DNA of 10,906 nt from assembly GCA_013202615.1 (NCBI GenBank), contig JABMRL010000037.1:1-10906 (forward strand). The letters are read 5' to 3'. This document shows, in pieces, positions 3,759-10,906 of this stretch. Under the pieces are notes generated by a model, which saw nothing but the letters and a program-made list of their open reading frames with translations, ran no database searches and was not told the DNA's origin. This DNA comes from Dehalococcoidia bacterium (lineage in GTDB: Bacteria; Chloroflexota; Dehalococcoidia; Dehalococcoidales; RBG-16-60-22). Position 1 is the first letter of the stretch. Every line of letters begins with the position of its first letter. A program made the position numbers and the translations under genes.

Positions 3759-6700
3759 TTATGCCCTCCTCACATTGCATAAGAAAGTCTTATACTCTGG
3801 GATAGTCGTGTTAGCATCACCAACGTGGGGGGTGAGGATGTTGCCGCTGTCACCGGTGGACATGCCGCTGTATCCCCAATGGTTTAGTACACCGATATGA
3901 TGGATTGTCTTTCCGCCCACTTGCAGCGGCTGGAAGCGTTTGGTGACGACGGCTACGGCATTAACCTCGCCGCGCGCGTTATAGACAACGACCTTGTCCC
4001 CAGCCGTGATGCCCTTTTCCGCAGCCAGCACTTCGTCCATCTCCACGTACATCTCCGGCATAAGCTCCACCAGCCAGGGAAGATTTCTGGTCATGATGCC
4101 GGTCTGCCAGTGCTCGGTGCAGCGATAGGTGGTGCCGACGTAAGGATATTCACTTGGTGTGCTGCGCTCGTTCCGGTATTTCCCGATGAAGGCACAGGGA
4201 TTGGTCTTGGTGCCTGACATCAGGTTCCTGTCCAGCGGGCTTTCCCAGGGTTCATAGACCTCGGGTAGTGGTCCATCGACACGGCCATAGCCCCAGATGC
4301 GGGCGATACCTTCCGGCTTCATAATGAAGGGCAGGTATTTCTCGCCCTCTTTAGCCTGGTTTATCGGCGCCCAGCCACCATCGGGAACGTCGCCCTGCCA
4401 TTTTTTCTCACTGTCGTAGTCGAGAATAACCGGGTGCTCGCTGTCCCAGGGGACCCCGTCAAGGTTGACCGATGCCCGGTTGTAGATAATCCGTCGGTTC
4501 ACCGGCCAGCACCAGGACCAGTTGGAGTACAGGCCGATTTCCTTGGGATGCGCGTCCACGGCGCCACGCCGGGCGCATTTATTCCCGTCCTCTTCGGTGT
4601 ACTGGTTGCAGTACAGCCAGTTGCCCGATGAGGTGGTGCCGTCATCTTTGAGACTGCCGAAGCTGGCTGCCAGCTTGCCGGTGGTAAGGTCATAGCCGTT
4701 GACCTCTCTAGCCACCATATCGGCATTGACATCGCCGTAGTTCCATACCAGATTGGTGACAGCTTCGCGTCCGGGAGCAGAGCTGTCAGCCTGGTAAAGT
4801 TCCTTGATTTTCAGCATGACGAGGTTCATTATTTCTAGGTCAGGTAAGGCGACTCCCGGCGGGTTCACCGCTTTATAGCGCCACTGTGCCCAGCGACCGC
4901 TATTGCTGATGCTGCCCTCTTTTTCGTAAGAGCAGGCTGCGGGGAGAACAAAGACCTCGGTGTTAATACTGGCCGCATCCGCTCCAGGCCTGTTCCAGAA
5001 CTCGGCGGTTTCATTCAGCCAGATGTCGGCGGAAACGAGCCAGTCCAGGTTGCCCAGGGCTTCGCGCTCTCCGTTGGAATTGGGGCCACCCACCGCAGGG
5101 TTCTGCCCCCAGCACCAGAGGCCCTTGATTTTACCTTCGCCCATGGCCTCGAACATTCCGATGTGGGTGTAGTTCTTGGCCGGGTCGCACTTGGGAAGGT
5201 AGTGGAAGCCAAAATCATTGGCCGTCTGAGCGGAATCTCCATACCATGCCTTGAGCAGGCTGACCACGTACTTCTTGGAATTACCCCACCAGTTAGAGCT
5301 TTTATCTCCGGCCAGGCCTTGAGGAGTTATGGTGGCATCAGGATTCTTGCCGGAGCGCTTGATATAAGTGTCAAGGTCAGCATCACTTTCCATGGGCACG
5401 TTGAGATATCCGGGGAGGATGTGGGCCAGCAGACACATGTCAGTGGAGCCCTGTACATTTGAGGTGCCGCGCAGGGCGTTGATGCCGCCGCCGGAAACAC
5501 CCATGTTGGCCAGAAGGAGTTGGAGGATGGCGTAGCCCCGGATGTTTTGAGTACCGTAGGTATGCTGGGTCGTGCCCATGGCATACATGATGGTGCCCGC
5601 CTTGCCCTTCTGGCCGGTGGCCGTATAGGTCTGGCAGACCTGAAGGTAGGTATCCTTTGGCGTACCGGTAATATTGCATACGGTATCCGCGTCATAGCGG
5701 GAGAAATGCTTCTTCATAAGCTGGAAGACGCAGTTGGGATCTTTCAGAGTTGGGTCGGCGGCGGGAGTTTTGGTGTCGCCATACTTCCAGGTATTCTTGG
5801 CATCAGTGGTATATTTGCCGTCCTTTACTTCGCCGAACAGCCCGTCATCGAATTCGAAGTTGGAATTGATAATCAGGGCAGCATTGGTGTACTGGGTTAC
5901 GTACTCCATATTGTAATTGCCCGGATTTCTCTCCATGTCGTTGAGTATGTAGTTTATCATGCCGCCGATGAAGGCAATGTCGCAGCCTGACCTCATCGGG
6001 GCATAGATATCTGCCTTGGAGGAGGTGCGGGTGAAGCGGGGGTCAACGCTGATGAGCTTGGCACCCTTCTCCATTGCCTTGGTAACCCATTTGAAGGATA
6101 TGGGATGATTTTCGGCAGCATTGGAGCCGATAATCATAATGCAGTCGGAATTGCGGATGTCAATCCAGTGATTGGTCATGGCACCGCGGCCGAACGTTTC
6201 CGCCAAACTGGCGACAGTGGCGGAATGTCATATGCGGGCGCAGTGCTCCAGATACACCATACCGAGGGCGCGGTCCATCTTGGAGAGTAGGTAGCACTCT
6301 TCGTTATCCAGTTCGCCACCACCCAGGCTGGCGACGGCCTCAGTTCGGCTGTTTGCTTCGTCAAAAGTGGCATCGCGGGTGGCTTTAACTCTCTGGGCGA
6401 TGGTCTCTATTGCCGTACCCCAGTCCATCTCTTGCCAGGCAGTTCCACCGGGGGCCCGGTAAAGGGGCCTGGTAAGACGGAGAGGATTGGGCTTGCCATC
6501 CACCTGATGGACCTGAGACATGGCGAGACCTTTGCTGCAGAGAGAGCCTTCATTGATGGGATGGTCAGGGTCTCCCTCTATTTTGAGGGTTTCGTCTTCA
6601 TAAGTCGTTACGATTGCCCCACAGCCCACAGCGCAGTAGCAACAGATGGTGGTGGTCTCTTTGACTTTGTTTTTGAGGGGTAAGAACCTGGGAACTCCAG

Positions 6701-6797
6701 CCAGGGCTGCCGTCGGGTCGAGGGTCCCAAACAGGAAAACACCTCCTATACCGGCGGCTCCTGAGGCTTTTAGAAAATCTCTTCGGCTTAACTCCAT
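3759..6797 (-). CDS. fdnG: Formate dehydrogenase alpha (catalytic) subunit with selenocysteine, Tat-exported
   Basis: This is one gene of 1012 residues, close to E. coli FdnG (1015), read through an in-frame TGA at 6230-6228 as selenocysteine 190. It oxidises formate to CO2 at a Mo- or W-bis(pyranopterin guanine dinucleotide) centre. The N-terminus carries a Tat signal (SRRDFLK at 4-10, hydrophobic stretch, likely cleavage after ALA at residue 33), so the active site faces the periplasm. A [4Fe-4S] cluster is bound by Cys52-x2-Cys55-x3-Cys59-x27-Cys87. The Sec residue is followed by His191, the expected catalytic neighbour, and by TVASLAETFGRGAMTNHW, the usual context in FdnG-type enzymes. 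The molybdopterin domains fill the middle, and the C-terminal dinucleotide-binding domain starts near residue 890. The start ATG has AAAAGGAGG 5 nt upstream. The gene leads the operon and ends one base before the beta-subunit ATG. Confidence 0.95.
6198..6225 (-). promoter_or_regulatory. SECIS-like hairpin after the selenocysteine codon
   Basis: The mRNA just after the UGA folds into a 7-bp outer stem (TTCCGCC 6225-6219 with GGCGGAA 6204-6198), a UU bulge on the 3' side (6206-6205) and a 4-bp inner stem (ACTG with CAGT) capped by the tetraloop UCGC (6214-6211). Position and size fit a bacterial SECIS element bound by SelB. The loop differs from the GGUCU loop of E. coli fdhF, as is common across phyla. 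Confidence 0.75.
6228..6230 (-). other. Selenocysteine UGA codon
   Basis: This TGA lies in frame between HCARI and HSATVASLAETFG. In FdnG-type formate dehydrogenases selenocysteine stands exactly here, before His and ahead of the FGRGAMTNHW segment. Similarity continues on both sides in the same frame, and a hairpin follows at once, so recoding is much more likely than a nonsense mutation. Confidence 0.93.
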
Positions 6798-7048: not shown

Positions 7049-7162
7049 GGTAGACAGAAAATGAGCGGCGCGCAGCGTTGGCTGGTCTGAGATTTGCTCT
7101 GATGTGATTCTGAATGCCAGGAGAGTTCGAACAGTAATTTGGTCGAAGGAGGAAACACGATT

Positions 7163-8833
7163 ATGAATTCATGGGAAGCAATCGTAAATATGCTAAAGGC
7201 TGAGGGAATCGATTATATCTTCGGCATAGGTGATTCCGGCCTGCAGCTATATGCCGAAAAGATTGAAGGTATAAGTAACGTAAACCTGCGATATGAGGGG
7301 TCAGCACCGTTCATGGCTATGGCTTACGCCAGATTGAGCGGCAAGCCGGGCGTTTGCACCGCCAGCGCTGGACCGGGAACGGCCAACCTGCTGCCTGGTG
7401 TACTGGAAGCATATTCTGGTTGCTCACCGGTGGTGATAATCAATGCCGCTAACTCACAGAGGACGTATGGCATGGGAGAGTTCCAGGAATCAGACCAGAT
7501 AGCCATGATGAAGCCTATAACAAAGTGGAGCGCCCGCATCCCGTATACCGACCGTATACCGTGGTTTGTGCGCCGGGCGTTTTCCATCGCTGTCAACGGG
7601 CAGCCGGGTCCGGTTTTTCTGGAGATGCCGTACGACGTGAGCGGGAAGACGCGATGGGAGCTGCATGATATTGGAAATCCTGAGTATGTGCCCGCCAAGA
7701 AAATTCGCACTGGCGGTGCCCCAGAGCTAATAGGTGAAGCTGCAAAATTGCTGGTAAAAGCTAAAAAGCCGGTGGTGGTTTCCGGCAACGGGACCGTGCT
7801 GGCAGGGGCTGCTGAGGAATTCAAGCAGTTTATCGAGTTGCTGGGCATACCTTTTATTACCACACCGGGAGGGAGGGGTATTCTGCCTGAGACCCATCCC
7901 CTGGCCCTCGGTGTCTGCGGTTACTACCGTACCAGGGTCGGTAAAGAGGTCTATTCCGATGCCGACCTTGTATTCACCGTTGGCACCAGGAACGAAAGCT
8001 ACAGCACCCACCAGTGGCGTGATTTCCCCGCCGGAGCGAAGTTCATCCAGGTTGACATTGAACCCTTTGAAATAGGCAGGAACTGGCTGCCGGACGTGGG
8101 CATCGTCGGTGATGCCGGGCTCGTCTTGAGCCAGCTCTCTGAAGCTATTAAAGCAGAGTCCGGGACGGGCAAAGACTTCCGTGAAATACCCAGGGTGCAG
8201 GAGCTGATAAAAGCTAAAGAGGCGTTTGAGCAGGAAGTAGCGGCGGAGTGCATGGTAGAGGCGACGCCGATACCGGCCAAGCGGGCTATCTATGAGACGA
8301 GCCGGGTATTCGGGGGGAATACCATTCTGGTCAGTGAGAACGGCTCGCAGGATACCTGGTCATACTGCTTCCCGTATTTCAAGGTGCAGGACGGCTCAGA
8401 GTGCGTGCCGGTCGCCGAGCAGACCTGTATGGGCATGGGCGTTGTGGGGGCCATCGCTGCCAAACTGACAAAGCCGGAGAAAAACGTGGTCTGTATCACC
8501 GGCGATGGTGCTTTCCAGATGTACATGAAAGAGCTGCCAACCGCCGCCCAGTATAAGGCCGGATGCACATGGCTGGTTTTGAACAACTCGGCATTAGGCT
8601 GGGTAAAGCACCATCAGATGACAGCGGTTGGCTGGAATACCAGCACCTTCCAGGTGCAGCCCGATTTCGTCAAATGGGCGGAGGCATGTCAGTGCTTTGG
8701 CAGGAGAGTGGAGAAAGCATCCGAGATTAAGCCGGCTCTGGAAGAGGCGCTGAAAGCGAACAAAGAAGGCAAGCCTGCTGTCATCGATGTCGCCGTTGGG
8801 CTTGAGATGTCGCACTTCAAACGGGCTGAGTAA
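7163..8833 (+). CDS. Thiamine-diphosphate-dependent enzyme, acetolactate synthase-like
   Basis: This 556-residue protein has the three-domain layout of ThDP decarboxylases and ligases: N-terminal pyrimidine-binding domain (about 3-170), central domain (about 190-325) and C-terminal pyrophosphate-binding domain (about 375-545). Glu45 (RYEGSAP) is the conserved cofactor-activating glutamate. The ThDP/Mg motif is GDG at 447-449, 24 residues, then NN at 474-475, followed by SALGWVKHHQ, which resembles acetolactate synthase. The motif FGIGDSG at 20-26 replaces the usual FG(V)PG. Close alternatives are acetolactate synthase-like ligases and 2-oxoacid decarboxylases; the substrate cannot be named. 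I chose ATG 7163 with AAGGAGG 10 nt upstream; a TTG at 7139 is less likely. It leads an operon, 24 nt before the oxidoreductase gene. No membrane segments are seen, so it is cytosolic. Confidence 0.85.
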   Translation: MNSWEAIVNMLKAEGIDYIFGIGDSGLQLYAEKIEGISNVNLRYEGSAPFMAMAYARLSGKPGVCTASAGPGTANLLPGVLEAYSGCSPVVIINAANSQRTYGMGEFQESDQIAMMKPITKWSARIPYTDRIPWFVRRAFSIAVNGQPGPVFLEMPYDVSGKTRWELHDIGNPEYVPAKKIRTGGAPELIGEAAKLLVKAKKPVVVSGNGTVLAGAAEEFKQFIELLGIPFITTPGGRGILPETHPLALGVCGYYRTRVGKEVYSDADLVFTVGTRNESYSTHQWRDFPAGAKFIQVDIEPFEIGRNWLPDVGIVGDAGLVLSQLSEAIKAESGTGKDFREIPRVQELIKAKEAFEQEVAAECMVEATPIPAKRAIYETSRVFGGNTILVSENGSQDTWSYCFPYFKVQDGSECVPVAEQTCMGMGVVGAIAAKLTKPEKNVVCITGDGAFQMYMKELPTAAQYKAGCTWLVLNNSALGWVKHHQMTAVGWNTSTFQVQPDFVKWAEACQCFGRRVEKASEIKPALEEALKANKEGKPAVIDVAVGLEMSHFKRAE

Positions 8834-8857
8834 GACTGATTGTTAAGGAGTGAAAAT

Positions 8858-9697
8858 ATGACCACCATTGCTCTCATGGGCGCCGGCGGGCAGATGGGAA
8901 TACGGATTACCCGGAAACTGAAAGACAACCCCGACTATAAAACCATTTACGTAGAGGTCGGCGACAAGGGTAAGGCAAAACTTGCCGGGCTGGGGCTTTC
9001 GGCTACCGCGCAGGACGAGGCAGTTGCTCAGGCCGATGTGGTCATACTGGCCGTTCCCGACCGTTTAATCGGTCCAATCTGCAACGACATTGTGCCAATG
9101 GTGAAAAGCGGGGCGATGGTCATGGGGCTTGACCCGGCAGCGGGATATGCCGGAATGCTGTCGGACCGCAGGGATATAAGTTACTTCATCACCCACCCGT
9201 GCCATGCACCCATGTTTGGTGACGAGACCGACCCCGAAGCCCAGCAGGACTTTTTCGGTGGCGACAAGGCAAAGCAGAGCATCGTCTGCTCCCTGCATCA
9301 GGGGCCAGATGAGGACTATGCCAGGGGGGAGGCGATTGCCAGGGTGATATACGCTCCGATATTAAAGGCGTACAGGGTCACCACGGAGCAGATGGCTATC
9401 CTGGAACCCGCCCTTGTGGAGACCCTCGGACTATCCTGCGTCTACGTCATGAAAGAGGCTATGGATGAGGCGGTCAGAATGGGCGTTCCTGAGGCGGTGG
9501 CACAGGATTTTCTGTTTGGCCACGTCCGCTGCATGATGGGCGAGGTTTTTCTTTTGGCTGGTGCCACCCTCTCCGAGGGGGCCAGGCTCGCTGTAGCCGA
9601 GGCAAAAGAACAGATATTCCAGCCCGACTGGATGAAAATAATGAAAATCGATAGCATCAAGGATAGCGTGCGGAAAATAACCCGCGCCGCCGGCTAA
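8858..9697 (+). CDS. NAD(P)-dependent oxidoreductase, phosphogluconate-dehydrogenase C-terminal / apionate-oxidoisomerase-like family
   Basis: This 279-residue protein begins with a Rossmann nucleotide-binding loop, GAGGQMG at 8-14, and a second strand ending in YVEVGDKG that may contact the cofactor ribose. The segment ADVVILAVPD is typical of beta-hydroxyacid dehydrogenase-type folds. A motif THPCHAPMFGDETDPEA from residue 112 and the helical C-terminal half (QMAILEPALVETLG, then FQPDW) match the family containing D-apionate oxidoisomerase (ApnO), which couples oxidation to a carbon-skeleton rearrangement. The substrate here is unknown. His113, Cys115 and His116 are candidate active-site residues. 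Start ATG 8858 has AAGGAG 7 nt upstream; the open frame from 8840 is longer but unsupported. It lies between the ThDP enzyme and the UxaA-family gene, and co-transcription is likely. Confidence 0.8.
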   Translation: MTTIALMGAGGQMGIRITRKLKDNPDYKTIYVEVGDKGKAKLAGLGLSATAQDEAVAQADVVILAVPDRLIGPICNDIVPMVKSGAMVMGLDPAAGYAGMLSDRRDISYFITHPCHAPMFGDETDPEAQQDFFGGDKAKQSIVCSLHQGPDEDYARGEAIARVIYAPILKAYRVTTEQMAILEPALVETLGLSCVYVMKEAMDEAVRMGVPEAVAQDFLFGHVRCMMGEVFLLAGATLSEGARLAVAEAKEQIFQPDWMKIMKIDSIKDSVRKITRAAG

Positions 9698-9753
9698 TAC
9701 GGAGGGGCGATATTACGTCGGTTTCATCTATAATATAAATCAGGATACAGGTG

Positions 9754-10906
9754 ATGGAATTCCGGGGATTCCGAAGAAAAAATGGTACCGTCGGCGTTAG
9801 AAATCATGTGCTGATTTTCCCCACCACGATCTGCGCTTCCACTGTGGCCCAGATGATTAGCCGGGAGGTATCCGGCACCGTCAGCGTGGTGCACCGTCAC
9901 GGCTGTGGCCACTTTGGCGACGAGAAAGAACTCATGGTCCGGACCATGGCCGGTTTCTGCGCCAACCCCAACGTTGCCGGCGTACTGCTCGTGGGACTCG
10001 GCTGCGAGTTGCTCACTCCCGAACTTATCGCTGAAGAACTGGTCAAAACCGGACAGAGGTTCGAGACACTCAGCATACAGGAAGCCAGGGGCACGACTAA
10101 CAGCGTGGCCAGGGGCAGGAAAATAGCGCAGCGACTTGTAAAAGAGGCCGCCGCGGCGAGTCGGGAAGTGGTTCCCGTTTCCGAATTGATATTGGGTCTC
10201 AACTGCGGCGGGTCAGACACTATCTCCGGAGTTACCGCCAATCCGGCGCTGGGCGTTGCCTCCGATTTATTAATCGCCGAAGGGGGAACGGTGATTTTTT
10301 CGGAAACACCGGAAATGATAGGGGCGGAAAACGTTCTCACCAGGCGGGCGGCAAATGCACAGGTCGGAAGTCGTGTTTCGGCGGTAATATCGGAGGTTTA
10401 TACCAGCATAAAGTCAATGGGCGTTGATGTTATGGGAGCCGAACCTTCACCCGGCAACATAGCCGGCGGGTTGACCTCTCTGGAGGAAAAATCGCTGGGG
10501 GCTGTCCTCAAGGGCGGGACCACCCCGGTGGTGCAGGTTACTGATTTCGCAGAGAAGCCGGAACAGAAAGGCCTGGTATTGATGAATGGACCGGCTCACG
10601 ACGTGGTCTGCAACAGTGGCATGCTGGCCGCCGGCGCTCAGGTCATTGTCTTTACCACTGGAAAGGGGACGCCGATAGGTTCGCCCGTTGCTCCGGTAAT
10701 CAAGGTCTCCTCCAACAGCGCCCTCTATGAAAAGATGAGGGATAATATCGATATAAACGCCGGAACAATAATAGATGGTACGGAATCTATTCAGGGTACC
10801 GGTGAGAGAATATTTAAGGATATTGTTGACATCGCTTCCGGCGAATTAGCCAGGGCCGAGGTTTTGGGCCACTGCGAGTTTGCCATACCTTCTATCATCC
10901 CGACGG
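9754..10906 (+). CDS. UxaA-family dehydratase/lyase large chain (altronate/galactarate dehydratase, SuyB-like), 3' end cut
   Basis: The frame is open for 384 codons to the window edge and is probably within a few residues of complete. It covers the catalytic region shared by altronate dehydratase (UxaA), galactarate dehydratase (GarD) and the beta chain of sulfolactate sulfo-lyase (SuyB). Visible family motifs are GFRRKNGTVGVRNHV (5-19), HRHGCGHFGDE (47-57), GLGCE, NCGGSDTISGVTANPALG (from 150), GGTVIFSETPEMIGAE, SPGNIAGGLTSLEEKSLGA and FTTGKGTPIGSPVAPVIKV. These enzymes remove water (or sulfite) from 2,3-dihydroxy or sulfo acids. The SAF domain that begins full-length UxaA is absent, as in SuyB-type two-chain enzymes, so a small partner may lie beyond the edge. 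ATG 9754 has AGGA 8 nt upstream; GTG 9751 in the same frame is possible. It follows the oxidoreductase by 56 nt, the loosest spacing in this operon. Confidence 0.85.
   Translation, partial: MEFRGFRRKNGTVGVRNHVLIFPTTICASTVAQMISREVSGTVSVVHRHGCGHFGDEKELMVRTMAGFCANPNVAGVLLVGLGCELLTPELIAEELVKTGQRFETLSIQEARGTTNSVARGRKIAQRLVKEAAAASREVVPVSELILGLNCGGSDTISGVTANPALGVASDLLIAEGGTVIFSETPEMIGAENVLTRRAANAQVGSRVSAVISEVYTSIKSMGVDVMGAEPSPGNIAGGLTSLEEKSLGAVLKGGTTPVVQVTDFAEKPEQKGLVLMNGPAHDVVCNSGMLAAGAQVIVFTTGKGTPIGSPVAPVIKVSSNSALYEKMRDNIDINAGTIIDGTESIQGTGERIFKDIVDIASGELARAEVLGHCEFAIPSIIPT

Follow-up and report, generated by a model that had tools for sequence, protein, structure and literature searches.

Contig JABMRL010000037.1 (C197 in our numbering), from a Dehalococcoidia metagenome-assembled genome (MAG; GCA_013202615.1, hereafter G000; 1.34 Mb in 277 contigs, 76.6% complete), ends in one plus-strand run of three open frames extending from position 7163 to the contig end. 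The entire contig, 10,906 nucleotides, is the window of this study. The run encodes, in this order, a thiamine diphosphate-dependent enzyme (ThDP), an NAD(P) oxidoreductase related to D-apionate oxidoisomerase (OXI), and a UxaA-family dehydratase (UxaA). The initial annotation had assigned three adjacent plus-strand genes to these families, as the open frames and their Pfam domains confirmed, and had arranged them as a three-step counterpart of the IlvB-IlvC-IlvD route. Comparison across genomes resolved the trio into a ThDP-OXI pair, which recurs outside the window and in a second phylum, and a UxaA gene that is probably a loosely attached neighbor. The trio is not a conserved pathway, and a ThDP-OXI two-step module is plausible. 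We tentatively favor a reading in which ThDP and OXI act consecutively on an apionate-like α-hydroxy-β-keto acid, most likely cleaving it, with UxaA acting separately.

Linkage of the ThDP and OXI genes

The ThDP search covered 61 genomes, with 10 matches at an E value of 1e-120 (the window's own included), and 39 titled loci that partly overlap. Neighborhoods were surveyed with a simple longest-open-reading-frame caller (limit of 70 to 80 residues), which may miss small genes and lists some wrong-strand frames; eight loci duplicating those of genomes already handled were skipped. OXI adjoins ThDP in 4 of the 29 family loci, following it in the window, in the sister species G005, and in G001, and preceding it in a Spirochaetota locus (L044). 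When the ten ThDP-bearing genomes were searched for OXI, the window's own clade, carrying the motif HPCHA, was found in the window, G005, and G001, and each copy lies directly after ThDP. Since OXI is rare in Chloroflexota (3/400 genomes in a phylum sample and 3/393 in a class sample, G000 counted in each), its adjacency to ThDP is not expected by chance. These findings support the earlier notion of an acetolactate-synthase-superfamily ThDP enzyme set beside a reductoisomerase-type enzyme. The initial annotation had further staked its trio on the three genes being neighbors in related genomes, which held for the ThDP-OXI pair and failed for UxaA.

In G001, the ThDP and OXI genes are followed by an MFS transporter gene, a SAF gene, and a different UxaA gene (37% identity to the window's), and the genes surrounding the pair encode sugar-acid and 2-oxo-acid enzymes. 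G002 and G003 share this arrangement minus OXI. Five further OXI copies (65 to 70% identity to the window's) sit on contigs other than that of ThDP; four of the five motifs were read, as HPCHP in G001, G002, and G013 and as HPGHP in G003, and the fifth copy is in G005. The surroundings of the second OXI of G001 (L090, 9988 to 19957) include a DeoC-type aldolase, frames resembling dehydrogenases, and a transketolase split into halves, possibly a separate branched-sugar locus.

The Spirochaetota OXI, directly before ThDP, is 39% identical to the window's. The ThDP enzyme of this locus was probably acquired by transfer, as judged from its place in the tree, yet the low identity of its OXI to that of the window suggests an old pairing or one with several origins. 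The same locus (3534 to 15777) encodes a corrinoid protein, an MttB-type methyltransferase, a metallo-hydrolase, OXI, ThDP, E1 alpha and beta subunits, and an FGGY kinase, and its ThDP frame runs on after a masked stretch into an apparent lipoyl domain (judged by eye).

Sequence and predicted fold of the ThDP enzyme

The protein contains three TPP_enzyme domains (Pfam). Its expected signature (Glu45, GDG, NN) was borne out by an alignment, also used for the tree, of 29 family members and two IlvB sequences: Glu45, the catalytic glutamate of the ThDP site, is E in all 31 rows, Asp448 of GDG and Asn474 are likewise invariant (31/31), and position 475 is N in 29 rows and D in 2. Sequences left out of the tree as fragments, near-duplicates, or distant were L042, L047, L050 to L052, L056 to L060, and the second ThDP-like frame of L022.

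The enzyme missed the acetolactate synthase equivalog cut-off (TIGR00118; 355.2 bits versus 538.35) and stayed below the cut-off of all 25 NCBIfam models listed, of 54 matched. Arg276, conserved as R in 29/31 rows, aligns with the arginine of acetohydroxyacid synthase (AHAS) that presumably binds the carboxylate of the second substrate. His484 takes the place of the AHAS tryptophan, which we assume selects the second substrate (VRQW motif), and W occurs only in the two IlvB rows of the 31. No regulatory subunit gene lies beside ThDP, OXI being the next gene.

The best solved-structure match by sequence was BbmA (8x3x/8xod; 269 bits, the next scoring 227), which also gave the top Foldseek E value, in an entry titled ThDP-dependent HKA synthase; we read HKA as standing for the α-hydroxy-β-keto acid class. 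The predicted ThDP model (mean pLDDT confidence, 88.7) reached structural Z scores of 43.5 with BbmA, 42.9 with glyoxylate carboligase, and 41 with AHAS. The ThDP-dependent HKA synthases BbmA and CsmA (8x3x, 8x3z) are one of the nearest known systems, and our literature search on them turned up nothing useful. Carbazole ThDP enzymes are reported to produce α-hydroxy-β-keto acids (PMC7466098). Fold and sequence similarity make formation of such acids a putative activity of the window enzyme.

The closest titled relative in the genome collection (97% protein identity) comes from a MAG titled Dehalococcoidia, and the family is present in MAGs titled Dehalococcoidia, Chloroflexi, Aerophobetes, Atribacteria, Halanaerobiaceae, and Spirochaetota. 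In the Halanaerobiaceae loci L041, L042, and L053, the gene immediately before the ThDP relative encodes a small conserved protein (about 100 residues).

OXI and its relation to apionate oxidoisomerase and IlvC

OXI has a PGDH_C domain (PF16896, 183 bits) and aligns over residues 4 to 276 with 5t57, a putative apionate oxidoisomerase. It has the PGDH_C membership and full-length homology expected of a D-apionate oxidoisomerase (EC 1.1.1.421); activity on D-apionate is putative. The nearest structures are 5t57 and 3c24, followed by ketol-acid reductoisomerases (KARIs), and the predicted OXI model fits the KARI fold across its length. OXI had been regarded as unrelated to the IlvC family; the model corrects this view and, because of the fold match, makes the step-two analogy to IlvC appear better than first thought. 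The KARI_C domain (PF01450) is absent from the OXI matches, with no match in G000 either; additional KARI_C proteins beyond the best-scoring copy were noted in G005 (C169, 10982 to 11413) and G002 (C88, 5928 to 6359). Sequence profiles of OXI and IlvC align confidently in the N-terminal domain only, and with the C-terminal alignment unreliable, the comparison of the two-metal carboxylate site was dropped.

In the D-apiose/D-apionate pathway, apionate oxidoisomerase is accompanied by 3-oxoisoapionate kinase and a RuBisCO-like decarboxylase; its content was taken secondhand from parts of PMC11747546 and PMC6302742, the former of which includes a four-carbon-acid kinase and a RuBisCO-like gene in the D-apiose breakdown set. 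The likeness to OXI lies in relatives about 50% identical to it, which adjoin just such kinase and RuBisCO-like genes in a haloarchaeon and in genome G420. The window differs in that ThDP adjoins OXI, neither a 3-oxoisoapionate kinase nor a RuBisCO-like gene lies beside it or elsewhere in the window, and its motif is HPCHA instead of the HPCHP of 5t57, 3c24, and most copies. The search for RuBisCO-like genes gave no hit in the six draft genomes of the genus, whereas G420 has one.

UxaA as a probable separate dehydratase

Both GD_AH domains were detected in UxaA (PF04295 and PF20629; 132 and 317 bits), together with a match to GarD (6u7l) over residues 4 to 365 (E value, 8.9e-72), and its frame is still open at the contig end. 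These domains and the aligned GarD stretches liken it to UxaA/GarD dehydratases; characterized UxaA enzymes use sugar acids as substrates. It differs from them, and from the SuyAB-type two-part enzymes that we take as a comparison system, in that a SAF part is neither fused nor adjacent to it, no SAF match being present on the contig. A SAF gene adjoins only one of the seven UxaA orthologues (in G013), which are 66 to 97% identical among themselves. Each of the six genus genomes has three to seven UxaA-type genes.

The trio with a window-type UxaA occurs in two loci only, the window and G005, the latter with the same run of three genes. In all five other genomes with a window-type orthologue (G001, G003, G004, G013, and G019; 70 to 75% identity), this gene lies among other neighbors on a contig different from that of ThDP, which does not support UxaA as a conserved third step. 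The simplest reading is a separate entry dehydratase. After the G003 orthologue, a short frame (L115, 5189 to 5482) resembles, at 39% identity, the C terminus of a different ThDP enzyme and is perhaps a remnant.

Proposed reactions and alternative explanations

In the preferred, tentative reading, the window carries a small unit of three genes from a Dehalococcoidia lineage that lives anaerobically and uses sugar acids. This setting is in line with cultured SAR202 Dehalococcoidia, which are reported to consume both sugars and sugar acids and for which nonphosphorylative pathways running in parallel have been proposed (PMC10444878). OXI would use NAD(P)+ to oxidize and rearrange D-apionate, or a closely similar branched 2,3-dihydroxy acid, in the reverse of the IlvC reaction. 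Cleavage of the OXI product by the ThDP enzyme would then yield an aldehyde and a 2-oxo acid (glycolaldehyde and hydroxypyruvate in the case of apionate) and would replace the kinase and the RuBisCO-like decarboxylase of the known route. UxaA would dehydrate a sugar acid in a coregulated, separate entry reaction. The substrate, the direction, and the cleavage are what we infer, as are the roles of single residues; cleavage is favored over synthesis because both the lineage and the gene surroundings appear catabolic and no RuBisCO-like step turned up. If correct, branched-chain amino-acid synthesis would have a catabolic mirror image of its first two steps, the proposal would explain how branched plant sugars could be used by anaerobic Dehalococcoidia that yielded no RuBisCO-like gene (0/6), and an uncharacterized ThDP family would gain its first testable substrate class; if not, the finding would be an ordinary sugar-acid neighborhood.

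Several observations weigh against this proposal. ThDP stands without an adjacent OXI in 25 of the 29 loci (four of the 29 are at a contig edge, on the downstream side in G004 and on the upstream side in G013, L034, and L035), so the basic ThDP reaction does not need OXI. The linked OXI clade is confined to 3 of the 10 ThDP-bearing genomes, and its linkage is based on the three copies with context among the 35 of 130 OXI-family sequences that carry HPCHA, the other 32 being database proteins. As this motif has Ala where most copies have Pro, the substrate of OXI may differ from apionate. The Spirochaetota pair has the reverse order, and its ThDP nests among Dehalococcoidia sequences in a tree without support values. 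On the enzyme side, glyoxylate carboligase matches the predicted ThDP structure about as well as HKA synthase does. Nor is the OXI family bound to one pathway, given that the neighbor of a Sinorhizobium OXI (49% identity) is a sugar ABC transporter, and neither a kinase nor a RuBisCO-like gene is listed in the 17 kb covered (plasmid context of OXI relatives came from two of the 251 records with a relative). PF17042 kinase-type proteins occur in 4/6 genus genomes, which leaves room for a kinase route; these genomes are drafts, 77 to 95% complete; and our literature search found no paper on such a ThDP cleavage.

A rather doubtful alternative is that broadly related catabolic genes came to share an operon by recent rearrangement and pass no intermediates to one another. 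The same 25 loci without OXI and the restriction of the trio to the window and G005 speak for it, as do four UxaA orthologues (G003, G004, G013, and G019) that instead have an opposite-strand frame resembling a short-chain dehydrogenase nearby (Pfam confirmed in G019). It is at odds with the position of all three window-clade OXI copies with context, which follow ThDP, and with the side-by-side occurrence of ThDP and OXI in a second phylum.

Ordinary D-apionate catabolism, with OXI as the apionate oxidoisomerase, a non-RuBisCO decarboxylase encoded elsewhere, and ThDP acting on an acyloin, a 1,2-dione, or the like, is unlikely; it draws on the same apionate oxidoisomerase kinship and leaves both the tight ThDP-OXI order and the changed OXI motif unexplained.

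Distinctly unlikely is the forward pathway suggested in the initial annotation, in which ThDP would ligate two 2-oxo acids, OXI would reductively isomerize the product, and UxaA would form a branched 2-oxo acid by dehydrating the resulting 2,3-dihydroxy acid. The gene order mirrors IlvB-IlvC-IlvD and the OXI model has the KARI fold; by our own chemical reasoning, two hydroxypyruvates could in principle yield 3-oxo-isoapionate; and the G001 run (ThDP, OXI, MFS, SAF, and another UxaA) follows a 2-oxoacid:ferredoxin oxidoreductase and a B12 mutase that could carry a branched product onward. However, the window-type UxaA is unlinked in 5/5 other genomes, G001 having the 37%-identity paralogue instead; no linked OXI accompanies ThDP and this paralogue in G002 and G003; the known substrates of UxaA enzymes are sugar acids; and the window's UxaA has no SAF partner beside it.

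The likeness to IlvB-IlvC-IlvD extends to the ThDP superfamily, the predicted fold of OXI, and the order of reaction types. The differences are a ThDP enzyme under the acetolactate synthase cut-off that lacks the AHAS tryptophan, an OXI with no KARI_C match, and a UxaA with no IlvD domain match. A role of the trio as the branched-chain amino-acid route is unlikely and was rejected, since canonical ilvD (6/6) and ilvC (5/6) are present in the genus genomes, so that valine and isoleucine synthesis does not depend on the trio; ilvC was not found in G000, which is 77% complete and whose ilvD frame is short and near a contig start. A pathway made up of the whole cluster, the oxidoreductase and B12 mutase included, was likewise rejected. 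These two precede ThDP in G001 to G004 but lie on non-ThDP contigs in G000 and G005, so they are not needed next door. In L112 (5595 to 10458), L113 (670 to 5533), and L014 (2847 to 7680), genes for a ferredoxin and a 2-oxoacid:ferredoxin oxidoreductase (VorB-like alpha) cluster with those for a second methylmalonyl-CoA-mutase-like enzyme, whose B12 subunit is separate. This second mutase-like enzyme occurs in 6/6 genus genomes and is 53 to 56% identical to their other copies.

Organization of the gene run and its flanks

The features of the run and of the adjacent formate dehydrogenase alpha gene are compiled in Table 1. ThDP starts with the ATG at 7163; 24 nt separate its stop from the OXI ATG (8858), and 56 nt separate OXI from the UxaA ATG (9754). 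The three genes are presumably cotranscribed. An Rfam search of the window gave no match at gathering level, and neither promoter-like sites (5, versus 3.5 in shuffles; standard deviation, 1.9) nor terminator-like sites (7, versus 4.2; standard deviation, 2.3) stood out.

Table 1. Coordinates of the ThDP-OXI-UxaA run and of the divergent formate dehydrogenase alpha gene in the window
Feature	Position	Strand	Evidence
ThDP-dependent enzyme, 556 aa, uncharacterized subfamily of the acetolactate synthase/HKA synthase superfamily	7163..8833	+	
Ribosome-binding site of the ThDP gene, AAGGAGG	7146..7152	+	Read from sequence
OXI, NAD(P) oxidoreductase with PGDH_C domain, D-apionate oxidoisomerase relative, predicted KARI fold, 279 aa	8858..9697	+	
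Ribosome-binding site of the OXI gene, AAGGAG	8845..8850	+	Read from sequence
Large part of a UxaA-family (galactarate/altronate-type) dehydratase, SAF domain absent, incomplete at the contig end	9754..10906	+	PF04295, PF20629, GarD match
Formate dehydrogenase alpha, N-terminal part up to in-frame TGA (selenocysteine); divergent, outside the unit	6228..6797	-	TIGR01553; ATA-TGA-CAT context
Formate dehydrogenase alpha, remainder; divergent, outside the unit	3759..6206	-	TIGR01553, 973 bits

Contig C269 probably continues the window downstream, although its opening 118 bases agree with the window end at only 93%, below the 100% that a true overlap should show. It encodes a convergent 468-residue IstB/AAA-type ATPase and a DnaB-type helicase, and was taken as the continuation because the same ATPase (453/469 positions equal, stop counted) also sits convergently after UxaA in G005. 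The initial annotation had considered that downstream genes might place the run in apiose or sulfolactate catabolism; those found are this ATPase and helicase. With the convergent ATPase downstream and the divergent formate dehydrogenase upstream, the run appears to comprise exactly three genes.

The selenocysteine formate dehydrogenase set begins 365 nt upstream of ThDP. Its alpha gene (3759 to 6797, minus strand) is read as two frames split by a TGA in selenocysteine context and is followed by FdhB, cytochrome b, and FdhE genes. A functional tie of the run to this set was set aside, the formate dehydrogenase genes being divergent. Formate dehydrogenase also lies near the ThDP relative in two Halanaerobiaceae loci (L042 and L053); beyond these, the gene families of the set are common only to the window and G005 among the neighborhood loci compared.

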